Below, one piece after another: positions 5,499 through 53,106 of a stretch of 64,000 bases of DNA. Position 1 is the stretch's first letter. Each line of letters opens with the position of its first letter. The stretch covers positions 157,978 to 221,977 of the forward strand of contig QJZZ01000001.1 of NCBI GenBank assembly GCA_003246575.1, written 5' to 3'. The translations under genes and the position numbers were made by a program. The stretch is from Candidatus Saccharimonadota bacterium. Lineage in GTDB: Bacteria > Patescibacteriota > Saccharimonadia > Saccharimonadales > Saccharimonadaceae. Below the pieces are notes generated by a model. It was not told the origin of the DNA. It was given only the letters and a program-made list of their open reading frames with translations, and ran no database searches.

Positions 5499-5535
5499 TA
5501 TGTCGTCAAGGTTCCTTTTTATGATTACCATAAAC

Positions 5536-5541
5536 AGTATA
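5536..5541 (-). promoter_or_regulatory. Extended -10 promoter of ldh
   Basis: TATACT preceded by TG-C on the minus strand (TGCTATACT); predicted start about 5529, leaving a leader of about 30 nt with AAGGAA before the ATG at 5498. Confidence 0.6.
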
Positions 5542-5583
5542 GCAAACGTAGTGACAAGAGGGTGTGGGCAAGGGGTTTTGGGG

Positions 5584-5589
5584 TATAAT
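5584..5589 (+). promoter_or_regulatory. -10 box of the carotenoid operon (leaderless)
   Basis: Perfect TATAAT ending 7 nt before the ATG of crtE at 5597, so the mRNA should begin at or one base before the start codon. No good -35 hexamer is visible. Confidence 0.7.
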
Positions 5590-5596
5590 ACAGTAA

Positions 5597-6646
5597 ATGT
5601 TAAACGATTTGCTTCTCAAGGAAACCCGTGAGCACGTGGACGCATACCTTGGCGAACTGTTTACTGAGCGAATCACTCAGGCGCGAGAGATTGGCGGATC
5701 GTATGAACGACTATGGTCGACACTCGAATCAGTCGTGTTTGCCGGTGGTAAGCGAATACGTCCGTACCTGACCGTCGTAGGATACGGATCTCTCGATACA
5801 AAAATCGAGCCAGTTGCGGCTGCACAAGAGCTCATTCACTGTGCAATGCTTGTACATGACGACGTTATTGATCGTGATTTTTCGCGTCATGGGCAGAAGA
5901 ACGTGAATGGGATGTATCGAGATACGTATATGCGGCTCATAGACTCAACTATCGTTGATCACTACGCAAACAGTGCGGCAATTCTGGCGGGAGACGCTCT
6001 GCTATCTGAAGCATATTGCTTGATTGCATCATGCGGGTATACGGGTGAAGTTAAGGATTTGGTCTCGCGTCAGCTGCATCGGTCGATATATGAGGTTATT
6101 GGTGGCGAGCTGATGGACGTTGAAGCCGGTATTGTAGTTGGCACGGAGATAGACCCACTCCAGGTATATCGCTACAAGACGGCTGGGTATAGCTTCATTG
6201 GGCCGTTGGTGTCGGGCGCACTATGTGCTGGGGCCGATGCGGCAACAATACAGAAATTGCATGACTTTGGAGCCGCGGCAGGTATTGCGTTTCAAATACA
6301 AGACGACCTACTGGGTGTCTTTGGCGATGAAGTGAAGACGGGCAAGTCAACGACGAGTGATTTGCGTGAAGGCAAATTAACGACGCTCGTTCAGGCTCAT
6401 CAGCGACTGATGAATGATGAACAGTCAGAACATTTTGCTCAGTGGTTTGGTGTAGCGTCTGCTACAGACCAGGAACTTGGTGCTTTGCGACAGGATATGA
6501 GAGACTCTGGCGCGTATATAGTGAGTATCCAGGTAGTAGATTCGTATTTTGACAGAGCGGAGGCGATCGCTACTGAGTGTGACAGCGCGTGGTATCGTGA
6601 AAAACTTGGCGGGCTCATCAACGGCTTACGTGAGCGGGGTGAGTAG
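5597..6646 (+). CDS. crtE: Polyprenyl (geranylgeranyl) diphosphate synthase
   Basis: 349 residues, trans-isoprenyl diphosphate synthase family. It shows GGKRIRP near residue 52, the first Asp-rich motif HDDVIDRD (about 92) and the second FQIQDDLLG (about 234), which bind the Mg2+-diphosphates. These enzymes elongate farnesyl or dimethylallyl diphosphate with isopentenyl diphosphate; the next gene being phytoene synthase points to a C20 product (GGPP). First gene of a six-gene run with overlapping ends; its TAG shares one base with the GTG of crtB. No SD, leaderless promoter. Whether the cell makes its own isopentenyl diphosphate cannot be judged from this window. Confidence 0.88.
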   Translation: MLNDLLLKETREHVDAYLGELFTERITQAREIGGSYERLWSTLESVVFAGGKRIRPYLTVVGYGSLDTKIEPVAAAQELIHCAMLVHDDVIDRDFSRHGQKNVNGMYRDTYMRLIDSTIVDHYANSAAILAGDALLSEAYCLIASCGYTGEVKDLVSRQLHRSIYEVIGGELMDVEAGIVVGTEIDPLQVYRYKTAGYSFIGPLVSGALCAGADAATIQKLHDFGAAAGIAFQIQDDLLGVFGDEVKTGKSTTSDLREGKLTTLVQAHQRLMNDEQSEHFAQWFGVASATDQELGALRQDMRDSGAYIVSIQVVDSYFDRAEAIATECDSAWYREKLGGLINGLRERGE

Positions 6647-7464
6647 TGGACTTGTATACGGCGACATCATACGAACTTGCCGAGCGCTTGACGAAGCGTT
6701 ACTCGACATCTTTTTCGCTGAGTAGTTTACTCTTCGATAAAGCCATTCGTCCAGATATTTATGCAATTTACGGTCTGGTGCGAATTGCTGATGAGATTGT
6801 CGATGCCTATGATGGGGCAGATCGATCTGAGCAGCTTGATGTGTTACTTGATGAGACAATGGCGGCGATTGAGCGAGGATACTCAGTAAACCCAATCGTA
6901 CATGCATTTTCGGTAACTGCGCGTACGTATGCGATTGACGCTGATCTGATTGAGCCGTTTTTCGAAAGCATGGCGATGGACTTGCATCCGAAAACGTATA
7001 CCAACAAACTCTACGAAACGTATATTTATGGATCGGCTGAGGTTGTCGGCTTGATGTGCTTGCGGGTATTTGTTGCCGGTGATTCTGCGCAGTATGAACG
7101 ACTAACGGCGAGCGCGCGTGCACTCGGATCGGCCTATCAAAAGGTAAACTTTCTCCGTGACATGAAAGCTGATTTTGAACAACTTGGACGGGTCTATTTC
7201 CCGGGCATTGACTATGAACGTTTCGACGATGCGCAAAAAGCAGCAATTATAGCGGATATCGAAGCCGAGTACCGAGCGGCACTTGACGGTATGAAAGACT
7301 TGCCTGCAAACTCGCGCAGAGCAGTGATGGCGAGCTATTATTACTACTCTGCCCTGCTCGCTCAACTGAAAGTAGTATCGGCGGACGAAGTGAAACAACG
7401 TCGTGTGCGAGTGGCGACTGTGCACAAGCTGTACTTGCTTGTGAAGGCATGGATGGGACGATGA
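6646..7464 (+). CDS. crtB: Phytoene synthase
   Basis: 272 residues, squalene/phytoene synthase family. The first Asp-rich site is DEIVDAYDG (about residue 48), and the second region GSAYQKVNFLRDMKADFEQL (about 155-175) carries the NxxRDxxxD pattern that binds the second substrate; the LGRVYFP motif follows. It joins two GGPP molecules to 15-cis-phytoene (C40). Start is GTG 6646, fused to the crtE stop (TAGTG), implying translational coupling; end overlaps crtI by 4 nt. Confidence 0.9.
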   Translation: MDLYTATSYELAERLTKRYSTSFSLSSLLFDKAIRPDIYAIYGLVRIADEIVDAYDGADRSEQLDVLLDETMAAIERGYSVNPIVHAFSVTARTYAIDADLIEPFFESMAMDLHPKTYTNKLYETYIYGSAEVVGLMCLRVFVAGDSAQYERLTASARALGSAYQKVNFLRDMKADFEQLGRVYFPGIDYERFDDAQKAAIIADIEAEYRAALDGMKDLPANSRRAVMASYYYYSALLAQLKVVSADEVKQRRVRVATVHKLYLLVKAWMGR

Positions 7465-8975
7465 AAAAGCGAGCAATTATCATTGGAGCTGGCTATGGCG
7501 GTATGGCACTGGCAAATATTCTGGGCAAGGCAGGCTACAGGGTTGATGTCTACGAAAAGAATAGCGAAGCAGGTGGGCGTATTCACGCTGTCAAGCAGGA
7601 TGGATTCACCTTCGATCTTGGCCCTTCGTGGTATTTGATGCCCGAGGTGTTCGAGGACTACTATTCACTATTTGGTGAGTCTGCTTCTAAGCGGCTTGAT
7701 CTTGTGCGGTTCTCTCCGGGATATAAGGTATATTTTGAGAATCATGACTCACTGCTCGTACAGGGCGATGTCGAGAGCGACAAAGCGACATTCGAAGCAA
7801 TAGAAGCGGGTGCCGGTGAAAAGCTGCAGCGCTATGTGGATGATGCCACACTTGCGTACGAACTTTCTGTGCGGCAGTTTCTATATAACAATTTCTTGCG
7901 TATTCGCGACGTGGTCACATGGCCAGTACTGCGTAACGCGCCGAAAATGCTCCGCTTGGTGGCGAAGACGCTCGATGGCTACGTTAGCCGCAAATTCCGC
8001 GATAAGCGCTTGCAGCAACTCCTCGAGTACCACATGGTGTTTCTTGGAACATCTCCCTTCGCTGCGCCGGCAATATATACGCTGATGAGCCATCTCGACT
8101 ACAGAAGCGGTGTGTATTATCCGCGACGAGGCATGCTGTCGTTGGTTGAAGATATGGAGCGGCTGGGACGTGGGTATGATATTTCGTATCACTATGACGC
8201 ACCGGTTGCAGAGATCGTCGTTGAGAGTGGCGCTGCTGTGGGAATTAAGCTACGAGATGGAACGATCGAGCGCGCAGATATCATTGTGTCGAACGCTGAT
8301 ATGCAATTCACAGAAACACAGTTGGTGCCCGATCGGTACCAGAGTTTCCCAAAAACCTATTGGGAAAAGCGCGAACCAGGGCCGGGGGCACTACTCGTAT
8401 CAATCGGCGTAAAAGGCGAGTTACCAGACCTGTTGCATCACAATTTGTATTTCGTCGACAAGTGGCGTGAGAATTTCGCAGCGATTTATGATGATGCGAC
8501 CATTCCTGAGTATGCTTCAGTCTACGTGTGTAATCCAACCAAGACTGACCCTAGGCTGGCGCCAGACGGTCATGAGAATTTATTCATCCTTATGCCACTG
8601 CCATCGGGTGTTGAGCTGAGCGCAGCAGAGCAGGAACAGCTCGCTGACCGTGCAATCGCAACATTTGCGCAGGCTGCAAGCATAGAGGATATCGAAGAGC
8701 GGATTGTGACGCGTATGACGTTTGGTCCAAAGGAATTTCAAGACAGATATAACGCGTGGCAATTCAATGCATTCGGTGGTGAATCGCACATCTTGCGACA
8801 AAGCGTTATTTTTCGCACGCCAAACAAGAGCAAAAAGCTAAAGAACCTCTACTATGTCGGTGCCGGTACGTTGCCAGGCATTGGGTTGCCAATGTGCCTT
8901 ATCGGGGCGCAGCTTACCTACAAGCAGATCGCCGGCAACCGAACAGCGGGTCCGCTTGGCGAGGAAGATATCTGA
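7461..8975 (+). CDS. crtI: Phytoene desaturase (lycopene-forming)
   Basis: 504 residues from ATG 7461, chosen because it gives a 4-nt ATGA overlap with crtB; an upstream in-frame ATG lies at 7449. N-terminal FAD-binding Rossmann fold (GAGYGGMALANILGKAGY), then the GGR motif and DLGPSWYLMP; a C-terminal FAD-binding stretch ends in YVGAGTLPGIGLPMCLIGA, typical of CrtI. The enzyme introduces double bonds into phytoene, usually four to give lycopene. Lycopene is the substrate of the elongase and cyclase encoded next. Confidence 0.92.
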   Translation: MKKRAIIIGAGYGGMALANILGKAGYRVDVYEKNSEAGGRIHAVKQDGFTFDLGPSWYLMPEVFEDYYSLFGESASKRLDLVRFSPGYKVYFENHDSLLVQGDVESDKATFEAIEAGAGEKLQRYVDDATLAYELSVRQFLYNNFLRIRDVVTWPVLRNAPKMLRLVAKTLDGYVSRKFRDKRLQQLLEYHMVFLGTSPFAAPAIYTLMSHLDYRSGVYYPRRGMLSLVEDMERLGRGYDISYHYDAPVAEIVVESGAAVGIKLRDGTIERADIIVSNADMQFTETQLVPDRYQSFPKTYWEKREPGPGALLVSIGVKGELPDLLHHNLYFVDKWRENFAAIYDDATIPEYASVYVCNPTKTDPRLAPDGHENLFILMPLPSGVELSAAEQEQLADRAIATFAQAASIEDIEERIVTRMTFGPKEFQDRYNAWQFNAFGGESHILRQSVIFRTPNKSKKLKNLYYVGAGTLPGIGLPMCLIGAQLTYKQIAGNRTAGPLGEEDI

Positions 8976-9289
8976 TGCAGTTCGCCTATCTTGCCGGGCT
9001 TGTCATCAGTCTCACCGGGATGGTTGTGTTGGATTGGCGATATACGCTTGCCTGGTTTTTTGATGCACGTGCGACATTCCTGACGCTACTTGCGGGCGTT
9101 CTCGTGTTTGTGGCGTGGGACATATTGGGTATTGGTCTCGGAATTTTTTATAGCGGACAGTCTGCGTATATGACTGGGTGGTATATCGGCCCTGAGTTTC
9201 CCGTCGAAGAGTTATTCTTTCTGACATTTCTCTGCTATTTCACACTGATTCTGTTCCGCATCGGAGGTAAACTATGGCCACGTACCTAG
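8975..9289 (+). CDS. crtYe: Lycopene cyclase subunit (CrtYe/CrtYc-type)
   Basis: 104 residues with three predicted TM helices. It shares TGATG with the crtI stop. The PEFPVEELFFL stretch near residue 70 is the conserved PxE(E/D) signature of heterodimeric lycopene cyclases of actinobacteria and archaea. It should pair with the next gene product to form epsilon- or gamma-type rings on C50 (or beta-type rings on C40) carotenoids. Ring type cannot be told from sequence by eye. Confidence 0.85.
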   Translation: MQFAYLAGLVISLTGMVVLDWRYTLAWFFDARATFLTLLAGVLVFVAWDILGIGLGIFYSGQSAYMTGWYIGPEFPVEELFFLTFLCYFTLILFRIGGKLWPRT

Positions 9290-9576
9290 TCCTGAATATG
9301 GTGGTGAGTATCGTTGTACTTGGAGCGGTGCGACGTATCACCGGAAAACTATCGTGGGGCAAGCTGATTTTTGGGGTGCTTGGCGTATTGGTCGTGTGCA
9401 CTGCAGTGTTTGATTCTATCATTGTGGCGAGTGAGATCGTCGCCTATGATTCAGAGAAGATACTTGGGTGGTATATTGGTGCCGCGCCGATTGAAGATTT
9501 CTTTTATGCAGTGATTGCAGCGTTTATTATCCCTGCGCTTTGGGCGTACAGTAGGAGGCGATATGCAGGCAAGTAA
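9274..9576 (+). CDS. crtYf: Lycopene cyclase subunit (CrtYf/CrtYd-type)
   Basis: 100 residues, three TM helices, overlapping the previous gene by 16 nt and preceded by GGAGG. GAAPIEDFFYA near residue 73 is the same PxE(D/E) signature as in the partner subunit. In Corynebacterium-type pathways both subunits are needed for cyclisation. The very tight overlap of the two genes supports obligatory co-expression. Confidence 0.85.
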   Translation: MATYLVLNMVVSIVVLGAVRRITGKLSWGKLIFGVLGVLVVCTAVFDSIIVASEIVAYDSEKILGWYIGAAPIEDFFYAVIAAFIIPALWAYSRRRYAGK

Positions 9577-10414
9577 AGTACTATTCTGGACATCGCGACC
9601 AGTGTCATGGGTCAATACCGCTTATCCATTCGCAGCAGGGTACCTGCTCATGGGCGGTGGAATTGATTGGCGATTGATCGTCGGAACACTGTTCTTTTTG
9701 ATTCCATACAATTTGCTTATGTACGGTGTTAATGATGTCTACGACTACGAATCTGATATTCGAAATCCGCGCAAAGGAAGTGTCGAAGGTGCAATTACAC
9801 CGAAGAAATACCATCCACTGATACTATGGTCATCCTTCGGTAGCACGATTCCATTTGTTGTCGTGCTATCGGTCGGCGCATCGTGGGCAAGCATCCTCGC
9901 GCTTGTTGCGGTACTGTTCTTTGTCGTTGCTTACAGCCTCAAGGGATTACGATTCAAGGAAATTCCATTCCTTGATTCGATCACGTCGAGCATTCATTTC
10001 GTCGGTCCGCTCGTCTATGCATTCACTCTCGTTGGTTCAACTGACGCGGGCTGGATTGCAGCATTGGCGTTCTTTGCATGGGGAATTGGCAGTCAGGCGT
10101 TTGGCGCTGTACAGGATGTCGTTCCTGACCGTGAAGCGGGTATTCGCTCGATTGCGACGATACTCGGCGCTCGTCGAACGGTTCGTTTTGCATTTCTTAT
10201 GTACTTGCTCGCAAGTGTATTTGTCGCAAGTATCGGGGGAACGATAGCATTGGTCGTAGCGTTTGTCGGGCTTATATATGCCGAGAATGTGTGGCCATAC
10301 ATATCGGTTACTGACAAGAAATCAGGCGCAGCGCGCAAAGGCTGGCGTCGGTTCATGTGGTTGAATTATATAGCTGGTGCAGTTATTACGATTTGCTTCA
10401 TGATTCCACGATAG
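9563..10414 (+). CDS. crtEb: UbiA-family prenyltransferase, probable lycopene elongase
   Basis: 283 residues, multiple TM helices. ATG 9563 is chosen because GGAGG lies 5 nt upstream; a longer frame to 9515 would lie inside crtYf. The first Asp-rich motif is NDVYDYESD (about residue 60), the second DVVPDREAG (about 187), both needed by UbiA enzymes to bind the prenyl diphosphate. In actinobacteria the same gene position after crtYe/crtYf is lycopene elongase CrtEb, which adds two C5 units to lycopene to give C50 flavuxanthin. A quinone or bacteriochlorophyll-type prenyltransferase role is less likely in this context. Ends 17 nt inside the convergent gene at 10398. Confidence 0.82.
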   Translation: MQASKVLFWTSRPVSWVNTAYPFAAGYLLMGGGIDWRLIVGTLFFLIPYNLLMYGVNDVYDYESDIRNPRKGSVEGAITPKKYHPLILWSSFGSTIPFVVVLSVGASWASILALVAVLFFVVAYSLKGLRFKEIPFLDSITSSIHFVGPLVYAFTLVGSTDAGWIAALAFFAWGIGSQAFGAVQDVVPDREAGIRSIATILGARRTVRFAFLMYLLASVFVASIGGTIALVVAFVGLIYAENVWPYISVTDKKSGAARKGWRRFMWLNYIAGAVITICFMIPR

Positions 10415-10646
10415 GAAGCGCCTCTACGGGCAGGCGAAGGATGTGGGCGAGTTGTTCGATTTGCTGAAACTTGCAGTACTTTATCGGTGTGTTGTTGACG
10501 TCATAGATGCGGTAGTAATGCGGAAAGACAACGGTTTCGCCGCGAAAGTTAGTTGCTCGGGTCGGCACGTCAATACGTCGAATCGTCCAGCCGGGCGGCT
10601 GGTCATCAAGAATTCGTTTGATTTTCGCGTAATGGTTAAATGCCAT
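10398..10646 (-). CDS. Short hypothetical protein
   Basis: 82 residues, soluble, no known domain recognised. The start ATG at 10646 is supported by a TATAAT that ends 6 nt upstream (leaderless). Basic N-terminal half with YAKIKRIL; C-terminal FQQIEQLAHILRL helix. It converges with crtEb and overlaps its last 17 nt, so it is not part of the carotenoid operon. Function unknown. Confidence 0.6.
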   Translation of the reverse strand: MAFNHYAKIKRILDDQPPGWTIRRIDVPTRATNFRGETVVFPHYYRIYDVNNTPIKYCKFQQIEQLAHILRLPVEALPIVES

Positions 10647-10652
10647 AGTATG

Positions 10653-10658
10653 ATTATA
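10653..10658 (-). promoter_or_regulatory. -10 box, leaderless promoter of the 82-residue gene
   Basis: TATAAT on the minus strand, 6 nt before ATG 10646. Confidence 0.55.
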
Positions 10659-10709
10659 CCGAGAAAACGGTACGATGCGCGATTGTTGGTTTCTGGAGCA
10701 TTTGGGTGC

Positions 10710-10715
10710 TACCAT
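10710..10715 (+). promoter_or_regulatory. Extended -10 box, leaderless promoter of the YdeI-like gene
   Basis: TACCAT preceded by TG-C, ending 6 nt before ATG 10722. Confidence 0.45.
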
Positions 10716-10721
10716 AGGGAC

Positions 10722-11243
10722 ATGATTACGTGCGACGTTACCTTAGTGGATATACACGAACGAACACTGCTCGTGTTACCAATGCAAGCCAGTGCAGAAC
10801 TGCCATCACGTGGTCTCGTTATGGTGAAGGGAAGTATCAACGGCAAGGCTTTTTCGACGGCGCTTGAGCCGGATGGGCGCGGAAGTCACTGGTTTGATAT
10901 CGCCGATGTGACTCCGGCGACCACTGACCTGAAAGCTGGTGATGCGGTCGCGATTGAGATGGAGTCGACCAAAAACTGGCCGGAGCCCGCTATCCCGGAT
11001 GACCTACAAGCAGCACTCGATGCGGATAGTGAAGCGTATGAACTCTGGCGTACAGTCACTCCCATGGCGAGATGGGACTGGATTCGTTGGATTCGGTCAA
11101 CCAACAATCCTGAAACGCGCGCAAAACATATTGTTGTCGCATTTTCGAAATTAAAAAATGGTACCCGGCGACCATGTTGTTTTAACCGCTCTATGTGCAC
11201 GGACATGACTGTCTCAAAGAGCGGTGTACTGGCTACGAATTAG
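10722..11243 (+). CDS. YdeI/OmdA-like (DUF1905-containing) protein
   Basis: 173 residues from ATG 10722. The N-terminal half looks like the DUF1905 beta-barrel (RGLVMVKGSINGKAFSTAL and GDAVAIEME). The C-terminal half has the YdeI/OmpD-associated pattern: PDDLQAALDADSEAYELWRTV, then WIRSTNNPETRAKHI. Members of this group have been linked to resistance to cationic peptides or bacteriocins, but the biochemistry is poorly defined. The frame is open further upstream, but the promoter position supports this start. The last 11 nt overlap the convergent membrane protein gene. Confidence 0.7.
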   Translation: MITCDVTLVDIHERTLLVLPMQASAELPSRGLVMVKGSINGKAFSTALEPDGRGSHWFDIADVTPATTDLKAGDAVAIEMESTKNWPEPAIPDDLQAALDADSEAYELWRTVTPMARWDWIRWIRSTNNPETRAKHIVVAFSKLKNGTRRPCCFNRSMCTDMTVSKSGVLATN

Positions 11244-11595
11244 TCTCGGATGGGGTGTCTGAAGGCTCCGAGATATCTTGGGTGTTCGATTGTTTGGGCG
11301 TGGTTTGAGGAGGTGCTACTTCCACTGGGGGTGTCACGGGTTGTAGTTCGGCTTTTTGGCGTGCGTTCATTTCTTTGAGAATATCGCGTGTTTCCATAAT
11401 TGCGCGGTTCACGCGCATTTTTTGAATCAAGTGCAGTGCATAGAGTAGCGTCACGCCGACCGACACAACCGTTAGAATAATGAGGTAGGGTTGGAGTGTC
11501 GTCATAATTTGATTCATGTCAAAAAGCGATGATCCATCGGCGCTAGTTCCGCTCAATAGTTGATTAATACCTGATTGGTCGAGTTGTGCTTCCAT
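11233..11595 (-). CDS. Single-TM hypothetical membrane protein
   Basis: 120 residues. One strong TM helix (about residues 36-58) is followed by a short charged helix and a Pro/Thr/Ser-rich tail of about 40 residues. The N-terminal 35 residues are polar. An extended -10 (TGCTATGCT, 11604-11609) ends 8 nt before the ATG. Function unknown. Confidence 0.65.
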   Translation of the reverse strand: MEAQLDQSGINQLLSGTSADGSSLFDMNQIMTTLQPYLIILTVVSVGVTLLYALHLIQKMRVNRAIMETRDILKEMNARQKAELQPVTPPVEVAPPQTTPKQSNTQDISEPSDTPSETNS

Positions 11596-11603
11596 TACTT
11601 CTC

Positions 11604-11609
11604 AGCATA
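11604..11609 (-). promoter_or_regulatory. Extended -10 box, near-leaderless promoter
   Basis: TATGCT preceded by TG-C on the minus strand, 8 nt before ATG 11595. Confidence 0.45.
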
Positions 11610-11671
11610 GCATACTGCTTGTGCAATACCAGAACAGCGGTACAATGGGGGTAGATAAAAGAGAGGTGATA

Positions 11672-12157
11672 ATGGATTCAATTCAGACAATCAAGAAGCA
11701 AATGCGACAATGGCTCCGTCCGATTCCCCATCTGCCATCGGACCTCGCGTCATGGCTAGCACATAACGCATGGTGGGTGACATTAATTGGTGTCGTGCTT
11801 GGTGCGCTGAGTGTGATTGGAACGATCAACGCGCTTGAGGGCGCTGCACATTACTTTGGTTTTCGTGTGCCAGTATCAAGTCTTCTACTTGCAAGTGTAT
11901 GGGTATGGATTGTCATGTACGCAATTGTTCTTGTTCTCGCGGCGCGAGCAGTTACTCCGCTCAAGGCGTTGCAGCTACGAGGCTGGGATCTGATGTTCAC
12001 TGCGGCAGTAATCGTTGCGGTTGGCGGCGTTATCTCTAACTTTATAAAGTTTGATCTCGGCGGAGTGTTGAGCTCGTTCGGTGGATTCATACTCGGTACA
12101 TATGTTCTGCTTGAAATCGAAAAATACTTCACGAAGAAGAAAAAATCAAAATCATAA
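11672..12157 (+). CDS. Hypothetical multi-pass membrane protein
   Basis: 161 residues with four predicted TM helices (about 30-52, 65-90, 104-122, 127-147) and a lysine-rich C-terminal end. ATG 11672 is chosen because GAGAGGTGAT lies just upstream. A TACAAT lies about 28 nt before it, so unlike many genes here this one has a true 5' leader with SD. No family recognised. Confidence 0.7.
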   Translation: MDSIQTIKKQMRQWLRPIPHLPSDLASWLAHNAWWVTLIGVVLGALSVIGTINALEGAAHYFGFRVPVSSLLLASVWVWIVMYAIVLVLAARAVTPLKALQLRGWDLMFTAAVIVAVGGVISNFIKFDLGGVLSSFGGFILGTYVLLEIEKYFTKKKKSKS

Positions 12158-12186
12158 ATACACCCCGGTGGTATTCCGGGGTGTAT
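12158..12186. terminator. Intrinsic terminator hairpin
   Basis: An 11-bp perfect stem (ATACACCCCGG, 12158-12168, complement 12176-12186) with a 7-nt loop lies between two convergent genes. The T-rich side is on the minus strand (end of the MFS gene); it may also stall plus-strand transcripts. Confidence 0.75.
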
Positions 12187-12200
12187 GAAGGGTGCTAGGC

Positions 12201-13886
12201 TTAGGCGATACCAGGATCGCTCGGACCATGACTCTTGAGTTCACGATTCGGAATCCACAGAGCGATAAGCAGCGCAACTGTCATGAGTGAGGCGGAGATG
12301 ATGAAGATATGGTGAAGCGAATCAGTGAAGGCATCAACCACTTCGCCGCTAAATTCATTTTGTTCGGATGTAAATGACTCGATTGCAGCATCTTGCGCTG
12401 GAGCTGGCAGTTGACTCGACTTGATACTGGTGGTTGCTTGTTCCAGGATTGAATCAGATTGTGTGTTGATCTGCAGAAGGGTGTCTGCATCGATGTCGCC
12501 ACTGAGGAATGCCGATGATTGAGGTGATTGCTGCAAGGTTTTGACGTATGGAAGTTCACTTGGCGTGCCGATGGCGGCAATGATGCCAGTTGTAAGAACG
12601 CCGCTGAGGATTGCTGTGCCAACAGTTGAGCCAAGTCCGCGAAAGAGCTGTACGCTTGAGGTTGCTGCGCCAAGATCTTTTTGTTCGAACTCATTTTGTA
12701 CTGCAAGCGTTAGTACTGGCATAGCCATACCCATGCCAAGGCCAGCGAAGAACATTGAGATTGCTTCGTGCAAGTAAGGGCTCTCTGGAGTAAGGAGTGT
12801 GAGTGACGCGATACTTGCGGTTGCAAGTGTGAAGCCTGCGATGATAAATGGTTTGTAGCGACCAAGGCGGGCAATAATTTGTCCAGTGCTGATCGAGGCG
12901 AGCATCATACCTGCCATCATTGGAAGGAGCATGAGACCGGCATTGGTTGCATCGGCGCCAAACACTTGTTGATTGAACTGAGTAAGATAGAGAATCGCAC
13001 CAAGGAAGGCTGCTCCAAAGAGGAGGGTGATGATACTCATCATCGTAAAGGTTTTGTTGGCAAAATATTTCAACGACAGAATAGGTTGTTTTGCTCGACG
13101 CTCGACAGCTATGAATGCTGCCGTTGTGATAGCGAAGAGCGCCCATAATGTTCCCTGGATTGCGCCAAGTGAAATGCCGTTATCAATCAAACCAGAGAAT
13201 ACAACCTCGGTGTTGTCTACAGCAAGAATGAGGGATGAGAGCGCAACGGCTATCAATGCAGCACCGAGGTAGTCTGGTTTGTGAACGCTATCATGCTTGA
13301 TTTGTGGAGTGAAACGAGCAATAACAAGTCCAGCGATGATACCAATCGGCACGTTGATGAGGAAATTCCAGCGCCAGTCGGTCACCAGGCCGAAGATGTG
13401 TTGACCATCGGTCAGCCAACCACCGAGTAGTGGACCAACAACAGATGAAATACCAAAGACGGCACCAATAAACCCTTGCCAGCGTCCACGTTCGCGTGGG
13501 CTGAAAAGGTCGCCGATAATGGTGAATGCATTTGCCATAATCATACCGCCACCGATACCCTGGAAGGCGCGTGCTGCGATCAGCCAGTCCATACTAGTCG
13601 CCATGCCGCTAAGCAGAGAGCCGAGCGTAAAGACGATGACACCGCCAATCAAGATCGGGCGACGACCGTACATGTCTGAAAGTTTACCAGCGAGTGGAAC
13701 ACTAACGGTGCTCGTGAGGAGGTAGGCGGTCACCACGAAGCCGAGGCTAGAGAAGCTATTAAACTCCGTGGTAATAGCGGCAAGCGCCGTTGCAATGATA
13801 GTTTGGTCGAGTGCGACCAAGAACATGCCGCTCATCACTGCGAGCATGACAATAACTTTTTGGCGCGTGCTAATATGGTGCAGCAT
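12201..13886 (-). CDS. MFS multidrug exporter, DHA2 (14-TM) family
   Basis: 561 residues, about 14 TM helices, as in EmrB/QacA-type drug:H+ antiporters. N-terminal LDQTIIATALAAI is the DHA2 motif D1 (LDxTIVNVAL type); motif A is GKLSDMYGRRPIL, motif C-like region GIGGGMIMANAFTIIGDLF. A roughly 100-residue soluble segment near the C-terminus precedes the last TM. It is 28 nt downstream of the AbrB-like regulator and probably in one transcript with it. Substrate unknown. Confidence 0.88.
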   Translation of the reverse strand: MLHHISTRQKVIVMLAVMSGMFLVALDQTIIATALAAITTEFNSFSSLGFVVTAYLLTSTVSVPLAGKLSDMYGRRPILIGGVIVFTLGSLLSGMATSMDWLIAARAFQGIGGGMIMANAFTIIGDLFSPRERGRWQGFIGAVFGISSVVGPLLGGWLTDGQHIFGLVTDWRWNFLINVPIGIIAGLVIARFTPQIKHDSVHKPDYLGAALIAVALSSLILAVDNTEVVFSGLIDNGISLGAIQGTLWALFAITTAAFIAVERRAKQPILSLKYFANKTFTMMSIITLLFGAAFLGAILYLTQFNQQVFGADATNAGLMLLPMMAGMMLASISTGQIIARLGRYKPFIIAGFTLATASIASLTLLTPESPYLHEAISMFFAGLGMGMAMPVLTLAVQNEFEQKDLGAATSSVQLFRGLGSTVGTAILSGVLTTGIIAAIGTPSELPYVKTLQQSPQSSAFLSGDIDADTLLQINTQSDSILEQATTSIKSSQLPAPAQDAAIESFTSEQNEFSGEVVDAFTDSLHHIFIISASLMTVALLIALWIPNRELKSHGPSDPGIA

Positions 13887-15984: not shown

Positions 15985-18900
15985 CTAGAAATCATACAAT
16001 GGTGTGTCATCAGGCATTAATATTCCATTCGTGAAGGTGCGACCATGCATGAGTCGCTTCGATGGGTCAGCAGTGAATTGGAAGGTGAGGTCTGAAATAG
16101 TTGGTCCACGAGTGACATCGTCTGGATACCCGTATGCGTGAGAGCTGTCCACGGTGATGTCGAAGTAGAAGTAGCGACCACACTGAATGTCAGAGCCGAG
16201 TTCGTTCTTGACAGTGTAATTACCTGGCGTGCCAAGAGTAACATCGCCAAATGTTGTGATTTTGCCCCAGGTCGACATTGTGTCGCATCGTGAAGCTGTT
16301 TGCTGGTTTGCCATACTACGATAACTTAGCTGCCAGCGAGCACCAATCGAGTTGTCGACACCATTGAGGAGCCAATAGTTAGGGAAAACGTCAGAGTCGG
16401 TATCCATCATGATCGAGTACTGCGCAACTTGCGCCTGTGAAAGGAGGGTTGACTGCTGGATGGCCGGTGAAGCATAGGATGTGCCTGAGCCTCCCGGTGT
16501 TATGACGATTCGTCCGCTTGAGCCAGCGCTGCCATGGCTGTTTATGCTACCACCATTTCCACCTTGACCTGAACTTCCTCTCCGGCTGTCTAGTGAATTG
16601 CCGGGTGTTGCACCGCTACCAGCAAGGTCTATCTGGGCGCTACCACTGAGATAGTTGGAGCCACCACCACCACCACCACCACCGGCGGTTGCGGATGATG
16701 AGCTACCACCACCACCACCAAAGAATCCACCACCACCACCACCACCACCGGCGTAGTAGGACGCGTATGTGCCACCGGGTCCGCCATCAGCAGCACCGCC
16801 ATTGTTTGCGCCACCTACAGTTGCAGTGTTACCGTTTGCGCCACTTCCAGATGATTCAAGTCCGCCGCTTGAACCGCTGCTTATTCCGCCGCTTCCTCCG
16901 GCTCCACCTGTGAATTGTGTACCACCGCTTCCTCCTCCGGCTGCAGCGGAACTTCCGCCAGTGATACCAGTGGTGCTGCCGCCACCGCCACCACCGCCGC
17001 CGCTGGTTGTCGATGAGTTGTCGCCACCACCACCGCCGCCACCGCCGGCAGCAATGATCAGATTGGATCCGCTTCTGCTAACCTCGGAGTGTCCACCGCC
17101 ACCACCGCCCTGGCCAGCGGACCACCAGTCAGTATTGCCGGCTCCACCACCGCTGCCAACGTATATATCTAAGGTTTCACCCGGCGTGACGCCTATAGTG
17201 TTCTGTGCGTAGCCTCCTCCTCCTCCGGCTCCTCCGATACTGGCACTACCGCCACCGCCGCCACCGCCGCCACCACCCCAGGCACTGATTGTAATTGAAG
17301 TGACGCCAGCGGGTACTGTGTAAGAGTATGTTCCAGCTGATGTATAGCTTACGTTATTCACAGCACCATTTCCTCCGATACAGTCCATTCCTCCAAGAAT
17401 GTATGCTTTACCGTCAGAGTACACAGCAGAAGAGCCGTAGCGTGAACCACTGTATTTTTCATTTGTTTCATACCAGGCACCGATGCCAGTTGGATAGTTT
17501 CCTGAAGATATGGTAGTATTTGCGCTGACTGGTCCAACGAGCGTTGTAGGGCTGCAGGACGCTGAATCGCTTGATCCGCCGAGAAGATAGATGTATCCGT
17601 TAGCGGCAAACGCATCTGCATCTGCGAGCCGTCGGGGAAGGCTTGTGCTGTAAGACCAGCTACCAATAGAGCCATCGGTAGTGCTGATTTGTGCATATTG
17701 TGTATCGCTTAGATAATTTCCTGAACTATCTTTCCCTCCAAAAATATACAGGTTATTTGCGTATGCTACTGAAGAGAGCGAGCTTCTTGGTATAGCAAAG
17801 GGTGTTGATCCTGTTGACCAAGAAGACGAAATATTTCCGCCGCTGGATAATTGAGGCGACACGTAAATAGTGTTTTTTGTGGTACTTGTGCTATCAATTC
17901 CACCAGTAGCGTAAATACGGTCATTCCATACTGCGACTGAAAGGTGTGTCCTTTCTTGAGGCAGTCCATTTGTGGCTGTTTGCCATGATGGAGACGAACC
18001 GGGAGTCATGTAATATACCTCGGGCCTGGCATCCAATATCACTGAGTTCGACTCACTGGGTGTCGAGTAGTGAGCACTCGATATCGGTCTTTCGACCGTA
18101 TTGTCCGGTAAAGTCCATCCAATTTCTACATGGTCTCCACCGTATGATTCTTTGTAATTTGCTTCAATATAGTAATAATGTCCAGCAACCAATGACACAG
18201 TACTCGAATGCTGTTGCGAGAACTTTGTCCACTCGTACTGATTTGTCCAGCTGCCATCGGGGACTGAGGCGATTGTCGTTGCATTTGCTGGATTGGTGTC
18301 GGTGCTGAGTCGAAGTTCTCCACTGTCGTCGCTCGCGAACCAAAAGCTGTAATTGCCAGTTTGAGGTGCGCAGATGAGGGCAGACAACCTGCCTCCAAAA
18401 GTGTCGCCTATATTTACGGCAGACTCAAGAGATCCTCCACTCAGTATCGTTGATGAGCTCGGACTGTTTGGGTAGCTTGATGCATTGTACAAATCGCTGA
18501 TGGATGTTCCGCTGATGCTGTCGTATTTCTCGAAGTAGGATTTCCCTGTTGGCTCACAGGTGCTATCAGCAGACTGCCCGCCGATCCAGTATAGCGACTT
18601 TCCTGCCGAGGCTAATTTACCCCATGCCCTACCGGCGGGAAGACTGTCCTCTGTCGTCCAAGTGCCGATGGTGCCATTGGCGTCTATTGGGGCGCTTTCG
18701 ACGCTGTCAGAGACGGAGTCGCAGGCTGATGTTGATGAACTGGTACATCCGCCAGCTATATACATTCTGCCGTTCAATATAGTAGCGCTTGCGCCAACTC
18801 TGTGCGGTTCATCAGAATAGGAATTTGCAGAGGTTGTATAACCCGCAGGTGCGCCACTATCGTTATTGTATACCTGGAAGGTTTGGATGTTATTTGTTGG

Positions 18901-21900
18901 CCCCGCACTGTTGCAGGTCGGGCTATTACCATTTGTACATCCGCCGATAACGTACGCGTATGAGTTTGATACCGGTAGACTCAGTCCCCATCGGTGTTGA
19001 ATATTTACGGAAGAAACATGAAAACCATCGGTTGCGCTACCCAGGCTGCCGTCGCTGACGTTAACCTTGATGAACTCAATATCGGCTAGTACTCCAGCGC
19101 TTTGGTCGTAGCCTCCGACAACGTAGATATATCCATTGTACCCAAATGCGGCAGCGCGACGACGGCCGACATCCATTTCATTGGGTGACTCGACCCAGCC
19201 ACCTGAGCTTGTGTTATCTACAGTCGATACGATGTTGTTATTATTGTCGATTTTCGCATATCGTATTGTTGACATGTCTACTAGACTTGGAGTAACTCCG
19301 CCGATTAGGTATATATAATTCGCGTAGATGGTGCCACTCATAATACCTAAACCGGCGCCGGCACTTCCAGGCACTGTGCCTATTTGCTGTTGACCCGATG
19401 TCGAGCAGCTGCTCAGGTTGCCGTTCAGTAAGATGTTGCACTTGTAGACAGCAGGGGAGTAGGCAGTGCAGCCCATACTTGAAGTTGTCATGCAACCACC
19501 TAAGACATATAGGTTTCCTGGTATTGATCCGGCATTTGCTGGATTGGAACGAGCGAAAGAATATAGGTACGATACTGATGTCATGCCTAGGCCAGTCATC
19601 GATTGTGATTGCCAGGGTCCAATGCTTCCGTCGGGGTTAAGAGCAGTATGTATGATGGCGTTCGAGTTGCCGCTTCCGGTAAGGCCGCCAACGAGATATA
19701 GTGTGTTGTTAAAGATGACGGGACTTGCAGCAGCAAGGCCGCCAGTAATCGCATGAGTTGTATCTACGCACCATGTACCTCCCTGACGAGTATTTGGTGA
19801 TGCGCATACCGCAGGTGCTATCATTTTTCCCGTTGAAGAGATGGCAGTGTATACGATGTTACCACTGGTGCTTGGGCAAGTGTTGCTTGTGCACCCACCA
19901 ATAATATATAGGTAGCCGTTAACGATGATCGAGGAGTTTAGTATATTTCCGACGTAAGCTGTACCCGGAAGGTCGCAGCCCTCGGGGGATGTGTCACTAC
20001 AGGGAGAAGTACCGTAGGGCTGTGATTGGTCAACGGTCGAAGCGTCCCCATCTTGGTTAATTGTGCCGTACTTAATATCACCAAGTGCGCTGGTGCAGCT
20101 ACCGGTTGTGACATCTTGGCTGTCGCAGCCGCCAATTTCGTAGAGGCTATTACGCCATGCTACAAGTGTTTGACCTGTGCGAGTATCGGCTACTCCGCCG
20201 ACAGTATTCCAGCTATCGATTGTCCCGTCTGCATTGATGCTTGCAACCTGAGTATTGCTGGCAATTGTTGTACAGTGGCCACTAGCGTTCGTTGCCGAGC
20301 AGCCTCCGCTAACGTATAGGTATCCTCCCCAAACTGCACCAAAGTCACCTCCAGTCGCCATCCTTTGAGTGGTGAGGTCTGTTGTGTGTACCCAGTCATT
20401 GACGGTTCCGTCACTGTTGATACGTGTGTAATACACGGATGTACTTGGGGCGCCACCAATACTGCTAGCACCGCCAACAAGATAGAGGCGGTCATTGTAA
20501 GTTTGTGCGGTGTAGCCGTAGGCTGAATATGGCAGAGAGGTGCCGGTATCCCAACTTCCTAGACGACCGTCCGCCGTGATATCGGCGATCGCGAGCTGGC
20601 CATTGACGGTCGTTGAGCCGCCAGTGCTGCTTAGCCCACCCATTAAGTACATGCGGTTTTTGTAGGCGACAACCTTGACGTCACTACGTGAACTCGGAAG
20701 GTCCGCGTCCCGATACCAGTAGGTCCAGGTGCTTTGGTCGCTACTGGTTGGGCTCCAGAGTTGAGGCTCACCATTGGCTCCAAGCTTTGCGATATACACC
20801 GTGTCGCAGTAGCCACTATCGCCGGTGCCACTCGCAGCTGTGCAGCTACTGTCTTGACCTCCAATTGCGTAGAGAAAACCATTGTATGCAACAAGGGAGA
20901 AGTTTCCGCGTGGGGCAGGGAGGTCGTACTGTGAAGATGTACACCAGCCACTACATGCGCCAGTGCCTGGATTGGTGCTCTCTAAGGTGTTGTTCGTTGT
21001 ATTGAATTTTGCCCACTCAACTGTGCTCGTCGCACCGGTGCCACCCGTATAGGTAATCATGACAAGGCCGTTTGCACCGGTAGTGCCACTTCCGCGGCTC
21101 GTTCCTGCTGACCCAGCTGTGGCCGCTCCAGCTCGGTCTGTATCTGTGTTATTTCCTGGAGTTGTTCCGCTTGCGCCCAGTGTACTCGATGGCGAGCCTG
21201 TTAAGTAGCTTGAGCCACCACCGCCACCACCACCGGCACCGCGGCTCGAAGATCCAGTACCACCACCACCACCGTAGTAGCCACCACCACCACCGCCACC
21301 ACCGGCGTAGCGGTTTGTAACATCATTTGCACCACCATCACCACCACCGGTGGTGCCACCATTGCTCGCGCCACCATCGCCACCCTGTGAGCTGCGACCA
21401 TCGCCACCATCGCCACCGAGTAGGTAGCTACCGCTCGATCCGCTATTGCTACCACCGCTGCCACCACTTCCGCCGGTGCCTTGCGTACCACCGCTGCCAC
21501 CACCACCGCCACCAGCGATACCACTCATACCACCACCACCACCGGCACTACCGCCGGTGTTGCCGCTGTTGTAGCCACCACCACCACCACCACCGCCGCC
21601 GGCTGCTACGAGAAGTGGCGTACTGCCGCGAAGAATAGCGGAATATCCACCACCACCGCCACCGGCGCCTGAGTTGTTCGTGCCAACACCGCCATTACCA
21701 CCACCACCGACGCTCACGGTAAGCGTCTCACCTGGTGTCACAGAGAGAACTGATGTCGAATATCCGCCGCCACCACCATCCGCGCCACTACTACTTCGCC
21801 CAGCGCCGCCGCCACCACCACCGGCGCCCCATGACTTGACAGTAATACTCGTGATACCAGCAGGTACGGTAAAGGTGTCGTTTCCGGCGGTGGTATATAC

Positions 21901-23097
21901 AACCTGTCCGCCCGCTGGGTGAATACCGCCGACAGTGTAGATGAATCCCCCTGCAACGGCCACACCTTGTTTCCACTTGGTTGTATTGAGCGCAAGGGTA
22001 TCATTCCATGAGTCAAAGCGTGCGCCAGTTGTCGCTCCTTTTTTGATGACCTTGTTGTCGACGTCAAAGTCAACGTTGGTCTCGTTATTGCCAGCCATAA
22101 ATTGCTGAGCGGTGACGATATAGACGCTTGGGTCGATTGAGAGCGGATACGACGCATCGAGTAGGTTGGTCGCAGTGACGGTGAGCGTTGATCCATTAAG
22201 CGTAAAAGATGCTTCGACTCCAGTTATTGATTTGCTTGATTCAACGATAGTTGGTGCGGGAATCGTGAAGAGAAGAAGGCTTTTTTCGGCGTTCGCCTTG
22301 GCTTTTTCGAGGAGCGCTTGATCACTTTCTGTTGCGGCGGTGACTGTTCCAAGGAAGAGTTCGTTGCCGTAGATACCAACACTTCCGTCACTCTCGAGAC
22401 GTGCTTCGGTGTTTTCTGGTAGGCCAAGCTGATAGTCAAATGACTGCGTATCCGTAGTCTTGCTTGCCAAGATGATATCTTCCTTGATACCAGTACCTTG
22501 AGCGGTGTAGACGAGCCAACCTTTGTGATCGCGGAATGGGTAAACAATACGATTTTGATCTTGGCGCCCAGTCATGAGATCCATTTTTGGCGTCATCGTG
22601 AGATCGAGCTTGTAGGTTGAGTCCGTTAGTGTCATGCCGGCGCCTGCATCACGAGGAATTGAGGCGCTCAGAAGCGGTGCACCAGTCTGCACTGTCTCGA
22701 TTGAAGCAACGGCGCCGCTCTCGAACGAGTAGGCTTGTGTCACTGGATCAAATTCAATATCGTTTGCCAGACGTTCACTTGGCGCGGATAGCAGAGAGTC
22801 CGCTGCTGCAACGCGGTACGTGTGGGGTCCAAAATAGGTATAGATGCGTTGTGTGATGTAGATAGCGCCTGCGATTACGGCGAGAATAATCGCGATCGTG
22901 AGTAGGTCTTGGCGGGTAGGAACAGGTAGCCGGAGTTGGTAGTAGTCGCGTTTTTCGGTATGTTTACGGTGAAATAGTTGAGAGAATGACGGCAAGCGAA
23001 CGCGACGTGATTTTTGGGTGTGCCGAAAGAAGCTCCACAATAGAAAGCCTGCTGTCCCGTGTCGTTTTCCTCTAAATCTCGACCTTTTTATCTGCAT
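15985..23097 (-). CDS. Giant Kelch-repeat / polyglycine / PA14 surface protein
   Basis: 2370 residues from ATG 23097 (GAGGT 6 nt upstream). A basic cytoplasmic N-terminus of about 60 residues is followed by one TM helix (about 65-90). The extracellular part has a beta-rich region, then many Kelch-like blades (the YxxGG pattern recurs, about 385-415, 700-1520 and 1690-1920), interrupted by two glycine-rich domains (about 415-695 and 1930-2205) each introduced by a TVPAG(I/V)TSIT(V/I) lead-in. A PA14-like carbohydrate-binding module lies at about 1529-1679 (YSFWFASDDSGELRLS, HYYYIEANYKES). Many blades carry a GGC...C pair, suggesting disulfides. Probably a cell-surface adhesin binding host glycans; host binding is inference. 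Confidence 0.88.
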   Translation of the reverse strand: MQIKRSRFRGKRHGTAGFLLWSFFRHTQKSRRVRLPSFSQLFHRKHTEKRDYYQLRLPVPTRQDLLTIAIILAVIAGAIYITQRIYTYFGPHTYRVAAADSLLSAPSERLANDIEFDPVTQAYSFESGAVASIETVQTGAPLLSASIPRDAGAGMTLTDSTYKLDLTMTPKMDLMTGRQDQNRIVYPFRDHKGWLVYTAQGTGIKEDIILASKTTDTQSFDYQLGLPENTEARLESDGSVGIYGNELFLGTVTAATESDQALLEKAKANAEKSLLLFTIPAPTIVESSKSITGVEASFTLNGSTLTVTATNLLDASYPLSIDPSVYIVTAQQFMAGNNETNVDFDVDNKVIKKGATTGARFDSWNDTLALNTTKWKQGVAVAGGFIYTVGGIHPAGGQVVYTTAGNDTFTVPAGITSITVKSWGAGGGGGGAGRSSSGADGGGGGYSTSVLSVTPGETLTVSVGGGGNGGVGTNNSGAGGGGGGYSAILRGSTPLLVAAGGGGGGGGGYNSGNTGGSAGGGGGMSGIAGGGGGGSGGTQGTGGSGGSGGSNSGSSGSYLLGGDGGDGRSSQGGDGGASNGGTTGGGDGGANDVTNRYAGGGGGGGGYYGGGGGTGSSSRGAGGGGGGGSSYLTGSPSSTLGASGTTPGNNTDTDRAGAATAGSAGTSRGSGTTGANGLVMITYTGGTGATSTVEWAKFNTTNNTLESTNPGTGACSGWCTSSQYDLPAPRGNFSLVAYNGFLYAIGGQDSSCTAASGTGDSGYCDTVYIAKLGANGEPQLWSPTSSDQSTWTYWYRDADLPSSRSDVKVVAYKNRMYLMGGLSSTGGSTTVNGQLAIADITADGRLGSWDTGTSLPYSAYGYTAQTYNDRLYLVGGASSIGGAPSTSVYYTRINSDGTVNDWVHTTDLTTQRMATGGDFGAVWGGYLYVSGGCSATNASGHCTTIASNTQVASINADGTIDSWNTVGGVADTRTGQTLVAWRNSLYEIGGCDSQDVTTGSCTSALGDIKYGTINQDGDASTVDQSQPYGTSPCSDTSPEGCDLPGTAYVGNILNSSIIVNGYLYIIGGCTSNTCPSTSGNIVYTAISSTGKMIAPAVCASPNTRQGGTWCVDTTHAITGGLAAASPVIFNNTLYLVGGLTGSGNSNAIIHTALNPDGSIGPWQSQSMTGLGMTSVSYLYSFARSNPANAGSIPGNLYVLGGCMTTSSMGCTAYSPAVYKCNILLNGNLSSCSTSGQQQIGTVPGSAGAGLGIMSGTIYANYIYLIGGVTPSLVDMSTIRYAKIDNNNNIVSTVDNTSSGGWVESPNEMDVGRRRAAAFGYNGYIYVVGGYDQSAGVLADIEFIKVNVSDGSLGSATDGFHVSSVNIQHRWGLSLPVSNSYAYVIGGCTNGNSPTCNSAGPTNNIQTFQVYNNDSGAPAGYTTSANSYSDEPHRVGASATILNGRMYIAGGCTSSSTSACDSVSDSVESAPIDANGTIGTWTTEDSLPAGRAWGKLASAGKSLYWIGGQSADSTCEPTGKSYFEKYDSISGTSISDLYNASSYPNSPSSSTILSGGSLESAVNIGDTFGGRLSALICAPQTGNYSFWFASDDSGELRLSTDTNPANATTIASVPDGSWTNQYEWTKFSQQHSSTVSLVAGHYYYIEANYKESYGGDHVEIGWTLPDNTVERPISSAHYSTPSESNSVILDARPEVYYMTPGSSPSWQTATNGLPQERTHLSVAVWNDRIYATGGIDSTSTTKNTIYVSPQLSSGGNISSSWSTGSTPFAIPRSSLSSVAYANNLYIFGGKDSSGNYLSDTQYAQISTTDGSIGSWSYSTSLPRRLADADAFAANGYIYLLGGSSDSASCSPTTLVGPVSANTTISSGNYPTGIGAWYETNEKYSGSRYGSSAVYSDGKAYILGGMDCIGGNGAVNNVSYTSAGTYSYTVPAGVTSITISAWGGGGGGGGGGSASIGGAGGGGGYAQNTIGVTPGETLDIYVGSGGGAGNTDWWSAGQGGGGGGHSEVSRSGSNLIIAAGGGGGGGGDNSSTTSGGGGGGGGSTTGITGGSSAAAGGGSGGTQFTGGAGGSGGISSGSSGGLESSGSGANGNTATVGGANNGGAADGGPGGTYASYYAGGGGGGGGFFGGGGGSSSSATAGGGGGGGGSNYLSGSAQIDLAGSGATPGNSLDSRRGSSGQGGNGGSINSHGSAGSSGRIVITPGGSGTSYASPAIQQSTLLSQAQVAQYSIMMDTDSDVFPNYWLLNGVDNSIGARWQLSYRSMANQQTASRCDTMSTWGKITTFGDVTLGTPGNYTVKNELGSDIQCGRYFYFDITVDSSHAYGYPDDVTRGPTISDLTFQFTADPSKRLMHGRTFTNGILMPDDTPLYDF
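16480..17310 (-). repeat. Polyglycine-coding low-complexity tract 2
   Basis: Runs of CCACCA/CCGCCG on the plus strand encode GGGGG-rich stretches in the C-terminal glycine-rich domain of the giant protein. Prone to slippage and to misassembly. Confidence 0.85.
21010..21850 (-). repeat. Polyglycine-coding low-complexity tract 1
   Basis: A second, separate tract of the same kind encoding the N-terminal glycine-rich domain, inserted directly after the first Kelch motif. Both tracts share the same lead-in and the VTPGETL motif, so they are duplicate modules. Confidence 0.85.
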
Positions 23098-23157
23098 GTA
23101 TACCTCAACATGTACTAGGGATATTGTACCATAACCGGCATAGTCAACGAAGCGCAA

Positions 23158-26100: not shown

Positions 26101-26343
26101 GGTGGTGTTACCTGCGGATTGTCCGTCACCATCCTGATAGATCTTGAACTCGACGTTATAGAAACCATCTGCCGCAGTCGCGCCAGAGCTTGTCAATAGT
26201 CGACCCTGAAAGTTGATACGCTGGTTGATCCCAGGTGCAGCATTAACAGGGGCAGTCAAAGATGCCAGAACAACAACAAACAGGGCCAATAAAAGGCTAC
26301 CCGCAATCATTGTGCGCAGTGCACGAAAAACACTAATAGTCAT
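23158..26343 (-). CDS. Secreted fibre-like surface protein with tandem beta modules
   Basis: 1061 residues. Signal peptide (TM stretch about 10-33, cleavage near VNAAPG). The N-terminal domain INQRINFQGRLLTSSG with FYNVEFKIYQDG and later STPYALNA is a domain common in surface proteins of these genomes. Then come coiled or beta-helix-like repeats (SIGAANSTSLTIG), and two successive modules of about 150 residues, each with an ending of the type TARTFY(A/V)D, looking like jelly-roll carbohydrate-binding domains. A further beta domain with Cys pairs ends the protein. Located 60 nt upstream of the giant adhesin and probably co-transcribed. Role in attachment is inference. Confidence 0.85.
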   Translation of the reverse strand: MTISVFRALRTMIAGSLLLALFVVVLASLTAPVNAAPGINQRINFQGRLLTSSGATAADGFYNVEFKIYQDGDGQSAGNTTGSPAGSLQWTENWLNSAGQGVTVRNGYFSVELGSINPFASQIDWNQDTLYLSVNIGNTTSCTISTSFTADCGGDGEMLPMKRLSSTPYALNAGMLGGRTSEGFIQNGTSVQNAASFNIDGTGIASTFQASTFDVASAGALSIGAANSTSLTIGKADGSASTAITSTSLTLGTAATGTTITSVAQTAANTAGSQLTIVGSTGNGFGQGGAITIQGGTGGLTNANGGNLNLLGGVGTGTGVSGLVIFNTPTFSTSTNDANCFASGALVASSCTITSSSVNSSAAIIVGFSADGQTATLPDPTILTAGRIVYITAANGSSDFTLSVNNGGTGNTIAMRQNTTATMIWNGSDWTAAGASSSTTLQSAYDNTLQSAGGAELVVSNTGNTNGLTIRDSATNPVNGTLLSVQTSSAASLLSVNGNVTEYASDAGAEVAGASSTTFPASTWTAIGASTVTRYTTTGPYINTGQGSVATTTTAVANIGVKNTLTSALTANTPYNVSFAVRLSSGTFTDMNVYYSNNGSNASVPCTVAATATISIWTKVNCTFTTPSTGITASNGILIRQTTATARTFYADNLSVTIAADFNYATDGSVTDGLNFAANWSSVNSATVSRTTSVGNDASDSAEIITPAISLRGIRNKLSVNPLPNTLYRITVYAASTTAGFNSFLVRYSRDGGSNYVNCADYNTQSVSSSTSDFTKITCYITTDGNAPTSPYIYFLQNDAVARTFYVDTFSMSLSSNSTPNVQIGGGVNGGAVTLFTLDRAASAPIASNNDALLGSMYYDTTLGKLQCYEADGWGACGSSPDNIVTISPEYTNAVLHGTGIGTMTSDLCSSTLGINDGTSGQDTICGSGETYNFYKWTSPQNTSQTYSIYVTYQLPGTFKSFNSGQTSLMGRTDDGTNGGGASVSYQVYRNSDSGLTSCGSSINVSSGTVTSWQTKVASGASDPSTCGFNAGDSIVFKIDVVASRTANAYVGNLNFAFSNR

Positions 26344-34245: not shown

Positions 34246-34509
34246 TTAGACGTTCACGAATAGGTAGACGAGGTTATCTCGCACAGTGACGAGGCCACTT
34301 TCGACGTCGAATGATGTGATGGTTTCACCGTTGATGATCTCGACCTTGCATGGCTCGAGCATCGAAAAGAAATCTGCGTGCCCGGGCAAAATCGAAAAGT
34401 CGCCAACGGCATTTTTGGCGGAAAACGCGCTGGCTTCGCCGTCATAGTAGACATGAAATGGCGCGCGCGCGATAACTTTTATGCGCTCTTCAAAATCAAG
34501 CTTGGCCAT
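34246..34509 (-). CDS. atpC: F1-type ATPase epsilon subunit, beta-sandwich only
   Basis: 87 residues from ATG 34509, overlapping atpD by 14 nt (an ATG two codons earlier is possible). The sequence matches the N-terminal beta-sandwich of epsilon: GDFSILPGHADFFSMLEPCKVEI, then a short end VRDNLVYLFVNV. The usual C-terminal two-helix domain, which inhibits ATP hydrolysis in many bacteria, is absent; full-length epsilon is about 130-140 residues. Last gene of the operon. Confidence 0.8.
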   Translation of the reverse strand: MAKLDFEERIKVIARAPFHVYYDGEASAFSAKNAVGDFSILPGHADFFSMLEPCKVEIINGETITSFDVESGLVTVRDNLVYLFVNV

Positions 34510-53093: not shown

Positions 53094-53100
53094 ACTATCC

Positions 53101-53106
53101 ATTGTA
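53101..53106 (-). promoter_or_regulatory. -10 box, leaderless promoter of msrA
   Basis: TACAAT on the minus strand, 7 nt before ATG 53093. Confidence 0.6.

Follow-up and report, generated by a model that had tools for sequence, protein, structure and literature searches.

The window analysed here, a stretch of 64,000 nucleotides (G000:C1:157978-221977), carries a complete operon of six carotenoid genes, which most probably covers only the downstream steps towards a cyclic C50 carotenoid, in a pathway fed by the host and serving the membrane or antioxidant protection, and which would represent an old, patchily distributed trait of the Saccharimonadia (probability about 0.72). The enzymes and their gene order are of an already known kind. 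The genome consists of four contigs with a size of 931 kb and is near-complete (98.6% completeness, 0.19% contamination). It belongs to a Saccharibacterium, a very small and probably host-dependent bacterium, as the preliminary description had proposed, since the 16S sequence on contig C3 contains the exact sites of three TM7-specific primers (TM7-580F, TM7-910F and TM7-1177R). In the sequence searched, 72 kb (72,000 bases) of contig C1 are N, and the statements on gene absence below carry this gap.

The genes crtE-crtB-crtI-crtYe-crtYf-crtEb occupy positions 5597-10414 of the window as six intact open frames, all on the plus strand and with overlaps of 1-16 bases; their coordinates, family cut-offs and motifs agree with the complete C50-type operon reported previously. 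Gene crtE (5597..6646, ATG start) encodes a geranylgeranyl diphosphate synthase of 349 aa (PF00348 polyprenyl_synt, 1.4e-46) that retains the catalytic motifs DDVID and DDLLG. The phytoene synthase gene crtB (6646..7464, 272 aa; PF00494 SQS_PSY, 1.9e-41) has a GTG start overlapping the stop of crtE, and its product retains the catalytic motif NFLRDMKAD. The phytoene desaturase CrtI (7449..8975, 508 aa) matched crtI_fam TIGR02734 with 492 bits (cut-off 238), retains the GAGYGG motif and is related to the solved structures 4rep and 4dgk. Two adjacent genes encode small cyclase subunits of CarR type, both above the cut-off of CarR_dom TIGR03462 (39.4 bits): crtYe, subunit 1 of the heterodimeric C50 carotenoid cyclase (8975..9289, 104 aa, 43.8 bits), and crtYf, subunit 2 (9274..9576, 100 aa, 50.6 bits; PF18916, 4e-9). 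The last gene, crtEb (9563..10414), encodes a UbiA-type lycopene C5-elongase/hydratase of 283 aa, counted from the ATG at 9563 in a frame that is open from an upstream TTG at 9515; the protein matched PRK13105/NF009608 with 394 bits (cut-off 217) and retains both Asp motifs, NDVYDYESD (NDxxDxxxD) and DVVPD (DxxxD). Genes crtE, crtB and crtI are thus all in one operon with those of the cyclase and the elongase.

The base composition and codon use of the operon are native. Its GC is 0.49-0.51 and its GC3 0.48-0.54, against a GC3 of 0.45-0.66 in the other genes of the window, with a codon-use correlation of 0.76. The enzymes have been kept by purifying selection, since dS was saturated at dN 0.11-0.50 and omega was low (0.07-0.18 where computable).

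An intergenic region (5532..5596) separates crtE from a divergent L-lactate dehydrogenase gene and contains a -10-like TATAAT 13 bases upstream of crtE, the start being near-leaderless. TATANT was kept 12-18 bases 5' of crtE at 14 of 22 related loci (counted by eye), compared with 29 of 176 other long ORFs, which suggests that the operon carries its own near-leaderless promoter. A sigma-70 two-hexamer promoter scan gave no match above chance.

Elsewhere in the window, genes for SOD (50224-50820) and for an MsrA with a GCFWC motif (52572-53102) are both about 40 kb away from the operon, not nearby as formerly stated. Two very large proteins, probably of the cell surface, are encoded at 15985-26343; the first has 2390 aa and contains long glycine-rich stretches, the second has 1061 aa. 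A second F1-like ATPase gene set (alpha, beta, gamma and unknown proteins) is located at 34496-40483; among the relatives of its proteins are the MMOB1660/1670 and MSC_0618/0619 families of mycoplasmas, and a second ATPase alpha/beta pair was observed on contig C4. Rfam and tRNA scans of the whole window gave zero matches.

In the proposed pathway, CrtE would form GGPP, CrtB phytoene and CrtI lycopene. CrtEb would then elongate lycopene by two C5 units to the flavuxanthin type, and CrtYe/CrtYf would close the end rings to give a pigment of decaprenoxanthin or sarcinaxanthin type, the sequence fitting either ring type. This unusual pigment, which would be yellow or orange, would most likely be located in the membrane, as rigidifier and antioxidant. 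In actinobacteria, C50 carotenoids have been connected with the fluidity of the membrane (discussed in PMC9948471); a protective effect against oxidation and UV has also been ascribed to C50 carotenoids (PMC12422013), and a membrane or protective role may likewise be expected in this Saccharibacterium.

The genome of the window appears to be without its own supply of IPP and DMAPP, both known routes being missing. IspH of the MEP route was found in none of the 48 genomes tested, elongase-positive or not, and the GHMP kinase N-domain in only one of them, which is not that of the window; among the control genomes, IspH matched 9 of 14 and GHMP kinase 14 of 14. The GHMP kinase domain covers IspE as well as the mevalonate kinases and decarboxylase, and because the MEP and mevalonate routes both need GHMP kinases, its absence bears on both. 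It is unlikely that a C5 gene is hidden in the N stretch of contig C1, given that the absences of IspH and GHMP kinases recur across the 48-genome survey. From these absences we infer that the C5 units come from outside: IPP, or something converted to IPP, would be taken from the surroundings, most likely from the host. The earlier view that CPR bacteria lack such biosynthesis holds here for the C5 steps but not for the late steps, which are present. An independent report agrees with these absences: in freshwater CPR, C5 isoprenoid synthesis has been credited to Gracilibacteria alone, the other classes doing only C10-C20 isoprenoid synthesis (PMC9166423).

A type-1 IPP isomerase (IDI), which would balance IPP and DMAPP, is encoded at C1:422684-423202 (225 bits, cut-off 127), and strong type-1 IDI matches were found in 5/28 elongase-positive and 0/20 elongase-lacking genomes. 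By eye, the genes for this isomerase and for a UbiE/MenG-like methyltransferase overlap end to end (G000:C1:421893-423220). Salvage through isopentenyl phosphate kinase was considered and dropped, as this kinase was not found in the genome of the window and was present only in G069. Motifs of UppS and UppP are present in the genome of the window, in which CrtE is the only trans-prenyl synthase detected; CrtE may also prime UppS for the cell-wall lipid undecaprenyl phosphate.

The elongase family NF009608 was detected in 46 of 393 genomes of the class Saccharimonadia (40 above the curated cut-off), several single-contig assemblies among them, and 22 of the positive genomes belong to the family of the window. 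A chimeric contig, which according to the preliminary description would have overturned its reading, or contamination is excluded by the 45 other elongase-positive genomes of the class and by the native composition. In a survey of 380 Patescibacteria genomes, drawn evenly, all eight elongase matches above the cut-off were in Saccharimonadia; weaker matches outside this class were accompanied by crtE, crtB and crtI without a cyclase gene, and seem to be of the acyclic type. Among Actinobacteria, the elongase was above the cut-off in 56 of 159 genomes of one order, and Mycobacteriales were positive in 1/200. Eight loci (L209-L216) form a tight clade of Actinomycetota elongases with about 150-173 bits, below the cut-off, and adjoin a divergent CrtI-like protein.

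In the clade of the window (SacA, comprising family f1 and its relatives f6 and f12) the six genes have identical order and strand at 22 of 24 loci, the remaining two being cut by contig ends. The flanks of these operons differ, and the neighbour genes of the window recur as scattered single matches, so the operon occupies different genomic sites; it may be regarded as an old trait of the Saccharimonadia that was patchily retained. SacB, a group made up of other families of the class, has a split operon in which crtI-E-B faces Ye-Yf-Eb, and several of its loci adjoin apparent nusG and rplK genes (identified by eye). The Eb of SacB lies within a single protein of ~680 aa, one open frame of about 665-697 aa being observed at L054-L058, L060-L064 and L067. 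At the two loci examined, L057 and L061, the elongase is fused to a family-2 glycosyltransferase, which suggests a glycosylated C50 pigment. A third group, SacRub (G069, G287 and G010; loci L068-L070), has a LyeJ-like elongase and CrtI. Locus L069 of G069 (6810-13248) holds a bacterioruberin-type set with CruF, close to genes for an IPP isomerase and an isopentenyl phosphate kinase, and G010 carries both a cyclic and a bacterioruberin-type set in one genome.

A relic operon in decay, or an artefact of binning or assembly, is hardly credible: the presence of the operon is patchy, the sole other genome of the same genus that was drawn (G216, 96% complete) is without the operon and its NF009608 elongase, and crtI is fragmented in G006 of SacB, but the six overlapping frames are intact with their catalytic motifs, omega is low, the near-leaderless -10 is conserved and the positive genomes of the class are numerous and include single-contig ones. 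A pathway ending at C40 beta-carotene and feeding retinal to a rhodopsin is very improbable. Although rhodopsins are used by freshwater Saccharibacteria, blh has been reported as lacking in the rhodopsin-bearing ones (PMC9296517), and no blh dioxygenase was found among the window ORFs scanned. Microbial rhodopsin PF01036 gave 0 matches at E ≤ 10 in the genome, so that a retinal supply is unlikely, in line with the previous remark that retinal is not the obvious product; besides, the elongase lies far above the cut-off of its C50 family and co-occurs with the cyclases.

For the phylogenetic analysis of CrtEb, other Patescibacteria and one haloarchaeon were used as outgroups; Mycobacteriales were represented in the trees by one locus, and Corynebacterium and Dietzia were not placed by name. 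The topology obtained was (SacC,(SacB,(G013,(SacA,Actinobacteria)))), with support of 97/90 for SacA and 99/97 for Actinobacteria, the latter with 45 of 46 rows, G1138 being the single actinobacterial row without a resolved place. Actinobacteria were already one clade in an early, Micrococcales-heavy tree, and SacA was still one clade when deep Actinomycetales and the Mycobacteriales locus were added. In the CrtB and CrtE trees SacA adjoins Actinobacteria and SacB is deeper, with weaker support; in the CrtI tree SacA and Actinobacteria are together (98) and SacB is with another relative. When CrtE, CrtB, CrtYe, CrtYf and CrtEb were concatenated (1056 columns), Actinobacteria received a support of 100/100, and of 100/99 without long rows. 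A distant clade of the elongase trees holds the bacterioruberin-type elongases. For CrtEb, CrtI, CrtB, CrtE and the five-gene concatenation the Saccharimonadia were outside the sampled Actinobacteria, and judging from these trees their placement stands under either root. The operon does not resemble genes borrowed recently from the known hosts; it would rather be an old branch of its own, of C50 type, beside Actinobacteria. A grouping with non-actinobacterial C40 pathways had been named beforehand as the outcome that would count against an actinobacterial origin; the proteins proved to be C50-type, and their separate branch had not been foreseen.

The gain from an actinobacterial host suggested by the preliminary description, whether recent or from a sampled lineage, is improbable. 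Actinobacteria are the closest outside relatives of the operon proteins and the known hosts of Saccharibacteria, yet in the concatenation they form one clade (100/100) without Saccharimonadia, other Saccharimonadia are deeper than the clade of the window, and the Arthrobacter CrtEb compared is just 48% identical to that of the window. The trait is, moreover, widespread and diverse in the class, and the comparison of GC and codon use proposed at that time turned out native, against a recent gain. A single old exchange between the Saccharimonadia stem and Actinobacteria, in either direction, is a serious contender, although we place it somewhat below even odds; the apparent nesting of Actinobacteria in Saccharimonadia would then result from misrooting by long outgroup branches. 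A misplaced root is a serious concern because the branch to the outgroup is very long, with 2-3 changes per site, and the SacB rows are compositionally odd, and mutual rooting of the short proteins CrtYe and CrtYf gives no settled root. Against it, forcing the Saccharimonadia to one clade gave AU p values of 0.046 for CrtEb and of 0.018 and 0.032 for the concatenation with and without long rows, by which one clade is weakly rejected. Since the rejection reaches only p 0.018-0.046, the exchange with Actinobacteria is considered old and may have run either way, and long-branch artefacts may play a part. A single old exchange would be an alternative only to what the preferred explanation says on evolution and does not touch the host-fed C50 pathway. 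That the cyclic C50 pathway of Actinobacteria came from Saccharibacteria, from symbiont to host lineage, with Saccharibacteria keeping a host-fed version without their own C5 supply, is conceivable but rather doubtful.

In the open-access literature searched, no report was found of a cyclic C50 operon in Saccharibacteria or of its phylogenetic position, nor of the elongase-glycosyltransferase fusion. CPR bacteria are generally regarded as importers of most of their lipids, and here a Saccharibacteria lineage keeps six lipid-like biosynthesis genes without the C5 steps. An exchange of isoprenoid precursors between symbiont and host would be a concrete, testable prediction for co-cultures, in which the pigment would serve as a simple visible marker, and the phylogeny questions the usual view of symbiont genes as recent host loans.

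Among known systems, bacterioruberin C50 carotenoid genes (lyeJ, crtD and cruF) have already been reported in Patescibacteria from Lake Baikal, including a Saccharibacteria bin (PMC9948471). They share with the window the presence of C50 carotenoid genes in CPR and a UbiA-type elongase, but their pathway is acyclic, with CruF and without CrtYe/Yf; no CruF-like gene was found among the window ORFs scanned, and in the elongase tree the elongase of the window is in a different clade from those of the bacterioruberin type (LyeJ).

The decaprenoxanthin operon of Corynebacterium glutamicum, crtE-cg0722-crtBIYeYfEb (PMC5401885, PMC6393565), has the same six enzymes in the same order, with overlapping frames, a heterodimeric cyclase and a separate elongase. 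It differs from the operon of the window, whose sequences are on a separate branch, in having cg0722 between crtE and crtB, in the crtR-type regulator, none of which was seen beside the window operon, and in the C5 pathway that feeds it. The gene order claimed previously thus matches C. glutamicum, except for cg0722, but not Micrococcus luteus, where the same enzyme set is arranged for sarcinaxanthin as crtE2-crtYg-crtYh with crtE, B and I, the elongase preceding the cyclase genes (PMC6393565). Dietzia (lbtA-lbtBC) and Arthrobacter sp. StoSoilB13, which likewise have a C50 elongase and cyclase, fuse a cyclase subunit to the elongase (PMC6393565), whereas the window has separate genes for Yf and Eb, and other Saccharimonadia fuse Eb to a family-2 glycosyltransferase.
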